64,000 bases of DNA from NCBI GenBank assembly GCA_016125165.1, contig WGMH01000003.1:124001-188000 (forward strand). The letters are read 5' to 3'. Every line of letters starts with the position of its first letter. Positions within the stretch are counted from its first letter, which is position 1. The position numbers were made by a program, and so were the translations under genes. This DNA comes from Alphaproteobacteria bacterium. Lineage in GTDB: Bacteria; Pseudomonadota; Alphaproteobacteria; Micropepsales; Micropepsaceae. Under the pieces are notes generated by a model, which did not search any database, was not told the DNA's origin, and saw nothing but the letters and a program-made list of their open reading frames with translations. Below, piece after piece: positions 6,829-22,055 of the stretch.

Positions 6829-6940
6829 AAAGCCAGTCCGGAGCGGCACGATGACCGAAACGGAACGGGGCCTATACTGGCCCCCGCGGCCCTTGGCAAG
6901 CCTCTTCGTATTGGCTCACCAGATGGCGGGAGCAGGCAGG

Positions 6941-7873
6941 CTAGACATAGGCAAGCTCCGCAGCGATCCGGCGGAATACGGCCGCGCCATCCGCTCCGAG
7001 AGAGCCGATCTGAGGTTCAGCCTCGTGCCAGCGGCGCAGGTTGCGAGCCTTGAGCATCCTGTCGGGTATGTCCGATAGTCGGATCAGGAATTGTCCGGCT
7101 GCTTCAAGTTCCTCAATACTCTCGAATTCGAGCCTTTCGCAGATCCGCGATATACCGATGAAATCCGTGTAGGTCGTCCCGGGAAAGCGGGCGAACATGT
7201 ATCGAAACCGCGTCTGCCGCACATCATTGCGCAGTCTCTCGCGATAGATATTCGTGGATTGTTCGGCATGCCGACGGTGGCGCAGCAGCACATCCGGCAC
7301 ATTGCCCATCTTGTATTTCAGGGCAAGACGGGTCTGGAATTCATAGTCATCCATGCCGTTGGTTTCACTGTAGCGGTTGTCCACAAATATCGCATTGCGC
7401 GCTACCATGGATGGATGCGGCATGCCGATCCGGAACACGAGTTCGCGGCAGATTCCTTCGTGCGATTGCGGAAACCAGACGCGTCCGGCGCCCATGCCAA
7501 AGGCTTCCATCTCGCAGCCACAGATGTCGATGTCGTTCTCGGCAAGGTATCGCAATTGGGTTTCCAGCTTGACTGGCAACGCAATATCGTCGCTGTCCAT
7601 GCGGGCGATATACTCGCCTTGCGCTGTCGCGATCGCTGCGTTGGTCGCGCGTGCACCGCTGATGCAGCTGGATGGTCGCGTCAGAAAAATGGCTCGAATG
7701 CGCGCATCCATGCGCGCAGCGTCCGCGATAATATCCTGCGACCCATCGCTCGATCCATCATCGACAATGATAAATTCAAACGCGCGATGCGTCTGCGCAA
7801 GAATGGAGTCTATGGATTCTCGAAGGTAAGGCGCCGTATTGAACACCGGCATGACGATGGAAACGAACGCCAT
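6941..7873 (-). CDS. Glycosyltransferase family 2
   Basis: VSIVMPVFNTAPYLRESIDSILAQ, EFIIVDDGSSDGS, YIARMDSDDIALP; ATG at 7873, TTG at 7879 as alternative. Confidence 0.92.
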   Translation of the reverse strand: MAFVSIVMPVFNTAPYLRESIDSILAQTHRAFEFIIVDDGSSDGSQDIIADAARMDARIRAIFLTRPSSCISGARATNAAIATAQGEYIARMDSDDIALPVKLETQLRYLAENDIDICGCEMEAFGMGAGRVWFPQSHEGICRELVFRIGMPHPSMVARNAIFVDNRYSETNGMDDYEFQTRLALKYKMGNVPDVLLRHRRHAEQSTNIYRERLRNDVRQTRFRYMFARFPGTTYTDFIGISRICERLEFESIEELEAAGQFLIRLSDIPDRMLKARNLRRWHEAEPQIGSLGADGAAVFRRIAAELAYV

Positions 7874-7884
7874 ACCCAAGATGG

Positions 7885-8031
7885 TCAGGAATAAACCGCA
7901 AAGTCAGGACCTATATTCAAAAACATTTGCGCGTCTTTGAGGTTGGTAATTTTGACTGCCGGGGCGTCCCAAATCGCTTTTGGGCCATCATTGGCCTTGA
8001 CCTCTTCCAATCGCACGCTCTTTGTCGACAT
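7885..8031 (-). CDS. Unannotated 48-aa peptide, candidate RiPP precursor: MSTKSVRLEEVKANDGPKAIWDAPAVKITNLKDAQMFLNIGPDFAVYS
   Basis: Read from sequence (below 60-aa ORF-track cutoff): AAGGGGAG-TGTA-ATG Shine-Dalgarno and start; stop 11 nt upstream of the GT2 ATG; W-x-x-P leader-like motif. Confidence 0.6.
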   Translation of the reverse strand: MSTKSVRLEEVKANDGPKAIWDAPAVKITNLKDAQMFLNIGPDFAVYS

Positions 8032-8110
8032 TACACTCCCCTTCGCCCCGAAGCCGGCGCAACAGATTCCAACAATTGAATTTTTTAGCGTTAATGTTTG
8101 CGAAGCTCAA

Positions 8111-19508: not shown

Positions 19509-20438
19509 CTACACCGTTTGGTCGCGGATGTGTTCCATCAAACGCGCCGTTTCCCGTTCAAAGACATCGAATCCGCGATGTCGTCGCAGGGTGTAGATGC
19601 GTACGCTGCGCAGCAGTTCCGCGCCCATCTTGAAGTGTTGTTCGCGATTGCCCATCAGATCACCGATGAAGCGCCGATAGGTCTGTGTCAGGACCGCGTT
19701 CAGTGCAGACACGCCGGTAAGGCGCGTGATGCTGTGCGCCTTTTCCTCAGTCGCATTCTCCAGCAGGTAGATCCGTTTCAATGGCAAGGGCTTGTGCTCC
19801 GCCACTGAGGTCACCGGCACGTGGTACTTGTCCATGCCGTCGAACACGCGTTCCAGATTGGTGCCCTCACCGCGCAGCGCGGAAAGCGCGTCCTGCCAGA
19901 GCTTGATGCGGCGAACGCCCGGCCATGCCATGGGCGCGCCCGCGTTCGCATCACGACTGACTACGCACACATCATCGCACAGCAGCGGATAGCCCTTGTC
20001 ATGCAGATAGGCCGAGAGCGTGGACTTTCCGGCACCGGAATCGCCCACAAAGGCGATGGCGCCGCCTTCATATTCGATCGCGCTTGCATGCAGTGGCAAC
20101 AGACCCCGCTGATGACAAAGCGCACCCATCATCGAACCCAGAAGAAAAATGCGAATATTGCGCTCGCTGGCGTCCGGCAATGCATCGATAATGATCTGCT
20201 CGCCACTCTTGGCGTGGAACCGTCCCACAGACGTAATGTTCAACACATAGTCCTGATCGCCGATCAGCGAATGGGCACCCAGGGCAGTCGTGTTCGGAAT
20301 TTCGGTTGGGATGTGGCCTCGCGTCACCGTTACCAACGGCAGCTTGGCAGCATCGTCCAACGCCGGTGCCAGCTCGGGGAGTTCGATCTCCGAGCGTATA
20401 CGCAGGCCGAACGCCAGATAATCCTGAACCGATGACAC
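19509..20438 (-). CDS. HprK-like P-loop kinase (lasso/RiPP-associated type)
   Basis: LPLHASAIEYEGGAIAFVGDSGAGKSTLSAYLHDKGYPLLCDDVCVV; GTG start at 20438 giving VSSVQDYLAFGLRIRSEIELPEL, preceded by GGGGAG. Confidence 0.8.
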   Translation of the reverse strand: MSSVQDYLAFGLRIRSEIELPELAPALDDAAKLPLVTVTRGHIPTEIPNTTALGAHSLIGDQDYVLNITSVGRFHAKSGEQIIIDALPDASERNIRIFLLGSMMGALCHQRGLLPLHASAIEYEGGAIAFVGDSGAGKSTLSAYLHDKGYPLLCDDVCVVSRDANAGAPMAWPGVRRIKLWQDALSALRGEGTNLERVFDGMDKYHVPVTSVAEHKPLPLKRIYLLENATEEKAHSITRLTGVSALNAVLTQTYRRFIGDLMGNREQHFKMGAELLRSVRIYTLRRHRGFDVFERETARLMEHIRDQTV

Positions 20439-20678
20439 CCTTGGCTCCCCGGCCTCACGGTTGGCTTGCCAGACCGGTCTGCCCCCGCGACCCGCGCCCA
20501 GCCCCAAGCACCGGGCCTCATAAGTCCTCCCAATATCATAGAAATTTGGCCCGGCAACCATGGGTGTTAGCACGTGCGGCAAGCCCCATGCCGAAATATT
20601 GCGTTAACGAGGTCGGTACACTAGTTTCGCCGCAATCAACCGAAGCTGCCAACGCTGGCGGCAATAACGCGTGGTGGC

Positions 20679-20972
20679 ATGAGCAACGATCCGAACCTGA
20701 ATACCGATACAGTAATCGTCCGCTCGGACGGCCTTATCGAGGCCGAAGTGGACGGTGAAGTCGTTGCCCTCAGCATCGATCAGGGTACCTGTTACGGCCT
20801 CAACAAGGTCGGTTCGCGGATCTGGGCCTTGATAGCAACCCCGATGAAGGTTGGTGACCTCTGCAATCAGCTTGTCGCGGAGTATGACGTGGACATGGCG
20901 ACTTGCGAACGTCAGGTTCTGGACCTCCTCGAGGAACTGCGCGCCGAAAAAATGATCGAGATGCGCGCGTAA
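20679..20972 (+). CDS. PqqD family protein (free-standing RiPP recognition element type)
   Basis: VVALSIDQGTCYGLNKVGSRIWALI..VGDLCNQLVAEYDVDMATCERQVLDLLEELRAEKMIE. Confidence 0.88.
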   Translation: MSNDPNLNTDTVIVRSDGLIEAEVDGEVVALSIDQGTCYGLNKVGSRIWALIATPMKVGDLCNQLVAEYDVDMATCERQVLDLLEELRAEKMIEMRA

Positions 20973-20990: not shown

Positions 20991-22055
20991 ATGGAGGGGC
21001 CGTTGGCCTCTGGTTCCTTCGACGCCCTGATTGCCAAAATCGGCGACAACCCGCTGTTGCTGGCCCAACTCGCCCGCACCATCGCGGCCAAGGGTGACAC
21101 GGCAAAGGCCCACGAACTTGCTCGCCGATCACTCGCGCTGGCGCCGGACAATGCACAGGTCCGCTTCGTCGCAACCGAGATACTGAGCCGCGGCGTCCCC
21201 CACTGGCACTTCACCATCGTTCGCGATGAGGCCCGCAATGAGGCTTATGATGCAGCCCTGCGCCGCGTCGTCAGGCCCGGAATGCGGGTCCTGGAGATTG
21301 GCACCGGCACCGGCCTTTTGGCGATGATGGCCGCCCGTGCGGGCGCGACGGAAGTGTTCACCTGCGAGATGAATCCGGCTGTCGCGGAATCGGCTCGCGC
21401 CGTGATCGCGCGCAACGGTTTCGCTGACCGGGTGAAGGTTATCGGCAAGCACTCCGCCGATGTCGATGCCGAAAAGGATATGGGCGGTCGCGCTGACGTC
21501 CTCGTATCGGAGATCGTCAGCAACGATCTTCTGAGCGAAGCGGCCCTTCCAGCGCACGAACAGGCGCATCGCCGCCTCCTGAAGCCCGGTGCAAAAATCA
21601 TCCCGGCCATCGGGCGCGTGCGCATTGCCCTAGCCTATGACGCAGAGGGCGACAAGAAGCGGATGTCGTCCCGCTGCGGCTTCGATCTGTCCGATTTCAA
21701 CGTTTTGGCGTCGCCGCGGTATCACATCGGGCGCGGCGAAAAGCGCCTCACACTCTGCAGCGATACCGCCGACCTGTTCTCATTTGACTTCCAGTCAGGC
21801 GGACCGTGGCCGGAGAGCAAATCTTCGGCTGTCGTCCACGCGGATGGGCGCCCCGCCACAGCCATAGCCCAGTGGATCGCGCTCGATATGGACGGCGCCG
21901 GCCACTACGAAAACACGCCGGAATCGGGCGCATCGTCCTGCTGGGCGATTGTGATCTACCCCTTTGTAAAAACGCTGACGCTTCCCGCAGGCACACCCGT
22001 GACCGTCCGCGGATCGCATGATCGAAATCACCTGACGATCTGGCCGGAATTCTGA
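20991..22055 (+). CDS. PRMT-like class I SAM-dependent methyltransferase with short N-terminal helical/TPR-like segment
   Basis: VLEIGTGTGLLAMMAARAGATEVFTCEMNP; SEIVSNDLLSEAALP resembles the PRMT7-type double-E region. Confidence 0.8.
   Translation: MEGPLASGSFDALIAKIGDNPLLLAQLARTIAAKGDTAKAHELARRSLALAPDNAQVRFVATEILSRGVPHWHFTIVRDEARNEAYDAALRRVVRPGMRVLEIGTGTGLLAMMAARAGATEVFTCEMNPAVAESARAVIARNGFADRVKVIGKHSADVDAEKDMGGRADVLVSEIVSNDLLSEAALPAHEQAHRRLLKPGAKIIPAIGRVRIALAYDAEGDKKRMSSRCGFDLSDFNVLASPRYHIGRGEKRLTLCSDTADLFSFDFQSGGPWPESKSSAVVHADGRPATAIAQWIALDMDGAGHYENTPESGASSCWAIVIYPFVKTLTLPAGTPVTVRGSHDRNHLTIWPEF

Follow-up and report, generated by a model that had tools for sequence, protein, structure and literature searches.

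What does a 48-codon open reading frame (ORF) lying between recJ and a GT2 glycosyltransferase gene encode, and which enzymes would act on its product? In the 64,000-bp stretch of DNA analysed here (the window), the most fitting reading of the ORF is that of a RiPP precursor belonging to the lasso/HPr-kinase type. The explanation that we prefer, with a probability of about 0.7, is that the 48-aa peptide is the precursor of a phosphorylated lasso-type RiPP, that it is accompanied by its own GT2 in a two-gene insertion, and that it is matured in trans.

The 48-codon gene and its insertion site

The ORF (7885–8031, minus strand) runs from an ATG at 8031 to a stop at 7885. Its existence and translation, MSTKSVRLEEVKANDGPKAIWDAPAVKITNLKDAQMFLNIGPDFAVYS, were reproduced exactly from the window sequence, and its assignment as a precursor is based on the translation, a family pattern and an HMM match in its own genome (see below). 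The neighbouring recJ, GT2 (PF00535, E 8.6e-30) and tRNA-Glu genes are as the first-pass annotation had described them, as is the distance of 11 nt between the ORF stop and the GT2 ATG at 7873. A Shine-Dalgarno sequence (AAGGGGAG, 8036–8043, minus strand) is located 4 nt 5' of the ATG. The hairpin that had been placed just before the ribosome-binding site (CTTCG-GGG-CGAAG, 8041–8053) is present, but it is not clear of the Shine-Dalgarno sequence, with which it has 3 nt in common. The 79-bp gap between recJ and the ORF is indeed AT-rich (46.8% GC versus 59.7% for the window), which makes the promoter suggested earlier possible but unsupported, as no sigma-70-like site was found upstream of the ORF. 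The peptide matched no Pfam, NCBIfam or PHROG family, and no close homologue beyond chance was detected in 95 family genomes, GTDB contigs and plasmids. A lack of homologues had been named beforehand as an argument against a precursor; it holds at close range only and not beyond. Overall, this previously overlooked gene of 48 residues is very probably a real one.

The peptide and GT2 genes fill a gap of 1,282 bp between recJ and tRNA-Glu (6829–8110, minus strand). The corresponding gap is 44–111 bp in 15 of 20 relatives, for which the script resolved both genes codirectionally, and 21 bp in another one, whose tRNA gene is on the opposite strand; for the remaining four the script picked an antisense ORF, but the coordinates of the recJ match are still close to those of the tRNA. 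Since the gap is small in all 20 relatives, the peptide and GT2 genes constitute an insertion. No ortholog of the GT2 was found in the family, the best match among 95 relatives being 36% over 218 residues. The enlarged gap and the missing ortholog together bear out the earlier suggestion that the pair is accessory cargo, at a site that is empty in the 20 relatives.

Precursor architecture and the associated GT2 subfamily

The peptide contains an aromatic-x-x-P-x-hydrophobic leader motif (W21-x2-P24-x-V26) that is also present in 12 other precursors. The register common to these precursors consists of W/Y, two residues, P, one residue and a hydrophobic residue, with Ala or Thr at W+13, an acidic position between W+22 and W+24, and Ser at the C-terminus; it was drawn from the precursors beside GT2s at six loci (L012, L014, L015, L017, L164 and L165) together with those of the peptide's own genome and of the genus. 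In an alignment of eight members W, P and Asp were invariant, and the sequence identity of the window peptide to the other precursors was low (15–36%). Written as [WY]..P.[FILVM].{7}[AT].{8,10}[DE].{3,8}[ST]$, the register matched 13 ORFs, every one in RiPP loci, and none of 48,432 random ORFs, numbers to be read with the knowledge that the pattern and the HMMs were derived partly from sequences later found by them. The 6,250 ORFs of other loci gave a single match, the window peptide on a refetched locus. The pattern was built with the window peptide in view; the other members alone would yield identical ranges.

The predicted leader comprises residues 1–36 (7924–8031, minus strand), with W21-x2-P24-x-V26 and Ala34 (W+13) placed by the alignments. 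The predicted core, FLNIGPDFAVYS (7888–7923, minus strand), contains Asp43 as candidate ring acceptor from the alignment register and Ser48 as candidate kinase site by analogy with the paeninodin kinases (PMC9266682). Lasso ring acceptors are Asp or Glu at core positions 7–9; Asp43 is located at W+22 and equals core position 7 only if the core begins at W+16, a start that was preferred because it gives ring sizes of 7–9 in the eight precursors aligned at that stage. The canonical register (Y/W at −17, Thr at −2) was rejected, as it yields ring sizes of 6–8 and a −2 residue that is not conserved. The peptide lacks the Thr(−2) that is classical for lasso leaders: the canonical place of this residue, W+15, is occupied by Met36 and not by Thr (rarely Ile, Val or Ala). 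Lasso precursors without Thr at −2 do exist (PMC10368454). With only five residues after Asp43, the tail would be very short for a threaded lasso.

The GT2 (6941–7873, minus strand; 310 aa) belongs to a subfamily that is associated with RiPP loci. A scan of GTDB contigs yielded seven full-length relatives at 39–43% (L012–L018) and 71 more distant ones. The full-length relatives, in other phyla, have lasso-type enzymes or precursors alongside in six of seven loci, the seventh being a 2.1-kb contig fragment, versus 0 of 71 for the more distant loci. The two strongest further members among 387 class genomes (G189 and G441) both adjoin W-x-x-P precursors. One of the loci (L015) is a complete cluster with a cyclase, an HPrK-like kinase, a PqqD, a B2, a precursor, two GT2s and a sulfotransferase-like gene; its precursor lies immediately 5' of the GT2s, matching the layout in the window. 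The window GT2 is intact and possesses the invariant residues of its subfamily. Two earlier proposals, a RiPP precursor and a Y/W-x-x-P leader, are supported by the similarly organised precursors next to related GT2s and by the lasso-type enzymes around these GT2s; the leader/core pattern, whose absence was to count against them, is seen in the precursor family. On a Sphingomonadaceae contig (L018, 3463–8128) a GT2, cyclase, B2, HPrK and PqqD occur together, and the pattern search gave no precursor there.

Dispersed enzymes and satellite precursors

The only candidate enzyme gene adjoining the ORF is the GT2; the enzymes do not cluster with the precursor. Because neither this clustering nor Thr(−2) was found, and the topology is a prediction, we kept the peptide outside the lasso family. 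At a distance of 11.5–13 kb from the peptide, the window contains an HPrK-like kinase and a PqqD. The former (19509–20582, minus strand), a candidate precursor kinase, gave weak Pfam and NCBIfam scores; its motif (LHAS...GDSGAGKS...CDD) is visible in the sequence, and its identity to the kinases of complete clusters in the genus is 42–45%. The PqqD/RRE (20679–20972, plus strand) scored 82.5 bits against the lasso-type chaperone model NF033536 (cut-off 80) and has relatives in complete clusters. It is followed by a SAM methyltransferase gene (20991–22055, plus strand), of which a homologue (35%) is present in a lasso-type cluster of G015 (L162). The first-pass annotation had linked the leader to RREs and had counted a lack of association with RRE genes as contrary evidence; with a lasso-type PqqD and an HPrK-like kinase at 19.5–21 kb of the same window, the association is there. 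The surroundings of the window kinase and PqqD yielded neither a cyclase nor a B2.

An RRE, a B2 peptidase and an AsnB-type cyclase are all encoded in the same genome (G000), according to an inventory that was compiled by targeted searches and is possibly incomplete. Contig C7 carries two cyclases with two precursors upstream of them. These cyclases and that of contig C2 are all under the NF033535 cut-off (276–317 bits versus 525). Contig C11 carries a B2 (NF033537) with a PF14907 nucleotidyltransferase and an ABC exporter, and, in another place, a PqqD, a B2, an HPrK and one precursor together. The genome combines an HPrK-like kinase with a peptide that ends in Ser48. Two ORFs considered as cyclases (L099, 7721–9697; L100, 9159–11270) were rejected, since Pfam identified them as an ABC exporter and an aminotransferase/NTP-transferase, respectively. 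In four other genomes (G065, G067, G026 and G066) related PqqDs lie beside a cyclase and a precursor ending GPEILILLS; homologues of the kinase and B2 were found at these PqqD loci in the first three.

The precursor HMM detected eight such peptides in the genome: the window peptide, two on C7, one on C11, and those at C8:659029, C8:795037, C2:232091 and C13:42660. Within 1.5 kb of the last four, there is no homologue of any RiPP enzyme tested. In G066, a complete genome of a single contig, seven precursors were found, five of them at distances above 90 kb from every PqqD detected in it; scatter within one contig indicates that the dispersal is not an assembly artefact. Family genomes with precursors number eight, all among the 13 of 96 that have a related PqqD, a co-occurrence that is suggestive but not independent, as those genomes contributed to the HMM. 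The 48-aa peptide is part of a lasso-type system that is dispersed and includes several satellite precursors, which goes beyond the idea of the first-pass annotation. A limited literature search found no report of dispersed lasso precursors. Prochlorosins likewise have several scattered precursors and enzymes encoded elsewhere, but they differ in their lanthipeptide chemistry and in the use of one promiscuous synthetase.

Proposed maturation and alternative explanations

In the proposed pathway, the W-x-x-P leader would be bound by the PqqD-type RRE of the window, the HPrK-like kinase would place a phosphate on the C-terminal Ser48, and a B2 peptidase would cut off the leader near residue 36. 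An AsnB-type cyclase of contig C7 may join the new N-terminus to Asp43, and the GT2 would attach a sugar to the peptide, plausibly at the (phospho)serine tail. We infer a lasso topology, phosphorylation and glycosylation for the product, as well as the cleavage site, the ring closure and the order of the steps. Paeninodin-type kinases phosphorylate a C-terminal Ser, and in pseudomycoidin the C-terminal Ser is phosphorylated and subsequently hexosylated on the phosphoserine (PMC9266682). The paeninodin/SyanA-type systems (PadeK, ThcoK, SyanK) resemble the one described here in their HPrK-like kinase, discrete PqqD-type RRE, B2, AsnB-type cyclase, aromatic-x-x-P leader and C-terminal Ser (PMC9266682). 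In contrast to these, the present system has Trp instead of Tyr in the leader, Ala or Thr at W+13 instead of Thr(−2), a short core (about five residues past the acidic residue), a GT2, and a precursor gene apart from the machinery. The PF14907 nucleotidyltransferase near a B2 (L099) recalls PsmN of the pseudomycoidin system (PsmK, PsmN) by annotation only; PsmN is annotated as a nucleotidyltransferase and not as a GT2, and the pseudomycoidin cluster is contiguous. BsfA of Bradymonas has a comparable lasso-type leader (Y(−17), P(−14), L(−12), non-Thr at −2) and a kinase, but is phosphorylated on core Ser3, ends in Asp and is encoded in a contiguous cluster with no reported GT2 (PMC10368454).

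The clusters of Linear Polyphosphorylated Peptides (LPPs) carry an SpI-like peptidase. LPPs are similar in that a small precursor is acted on by an HprK-like kinase and a discrete RRE, and different in that the phosphate is on core Ser3, the source organisms are Bacillota and there are no cyclases (PMC13381572); the genome studied here has cyclases, and its conserved Ser is C-terminal. The product could accordingly be a linear, LPP-like phospho- and glycopeptide on which the RRE, kinase and GT2 act and no macrolactam is formed. The short tail beyond Asp43 and the lack of a cyclase in cis make this a serious rival, although we consider it unlikely. LPP clusters combine an HprK-like kinase, a discrete RRE and an NTP transferase without a cyclase (PMC13381572), and the window has a kinase and PqqD while a cyclase and B2 were not found nearby. 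However, lasso-type cyclases adjoin two sibling precursors of identical register in the genome, and the acidic residue at W+22 to +24 is retained across the precursor family, both of which argue against a linear product.

The same scatter of the machinery over several contigs could be that of a decayed or silent relic, i.e. a precursor-GT2 cassette that came in by transfer or remained after the break-up of a cluster and whose maturation has been lost. The absence of the peptide from every other genome searched and of a recognisable promoter would agree with this. The ORF and the GT2 are intact, however, the latter with the invariant residues of its subfamily; the Shine-Dalgarno sequence is good, the 11-nt spacing suggests coupling of the two genes, and there are enzyme sets elsewhere in the genome and similar dispersal in several relatives, so that a relic appears improbable. 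It is likewise improbable that maturation relies on the complete lasso-type cluster of C2 and not on the dispersed machinery: C2 offers a cyclase, PqqD, B2, HPrK and sulfotransferase in one place, but its precursors differ in type (Y-x-x-P, K-x5-E, GPS/GPT at the end), and the window kinase and PqqD are closer to the genus clusters with GPEILILLS precursors than to C2. The small size of the ORF and its lack of a database family are what a chance ORF in an intergenic gap would show; the pattern statistics, the Shine-Dalgarno sequence and its position before a RiPP-type GT2, just like the L015 precursor before its GT2s, make such an origin highly improbable.

We see even odds for a genus-wide, trans-acting lasso-type system in which satellite precursors, some with private tailoring genes such as the GT2, feed kinase, RRE, peptidase and cyclase genes that are shared but dispersed, yielding a combinatorial peptide family of a very short core class. 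Genome mining seeks precursors beside enzymes; if lone ones are common, as they are in G000, G034 and G066, the extent of lasso-type chemistry is underestimated. One genome would also be a natural test of how a single enzyme set distinguishes many leaders, and the GT2 subfamily would be a candidate for peptide glycosyltransferases of lasso-type peptides.

Some other loci deserve description. The complete C2 cluster (L098, 4980–11615, from C2:770001–790000) comprises HPrK, B2, PqqD, a sulfotransferase and three precursors, which have Y-x-x-P and K-x5-E in common and end in GPS or GPT. In G029 (L158, 6622–10649) a PqqD 68–70% identical to that of the window occurs with a kinase, cyclase and B2, and no precursor was detected by the pattern on this stretch or by the HMM in the genome at the threshold used. 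The HPrK homology in G026 extends across two ORFs (L161, 6218–6874 and 6881–7153), which represents a frameshift or sequencing error. On C7 (L172, 7255–12477) the two lasso-type cyclases are neighbours and accompany the two precursors; RRE, B2 and kinase matches are absent there. A similar, apparently secreted protein (RTWISGVGDDANPCSRTAPCKTFAGAISK) is encoded near a cyclase and precursor both in G000 (L172, 9254–10327) and in G030 (L182, 349–1371).
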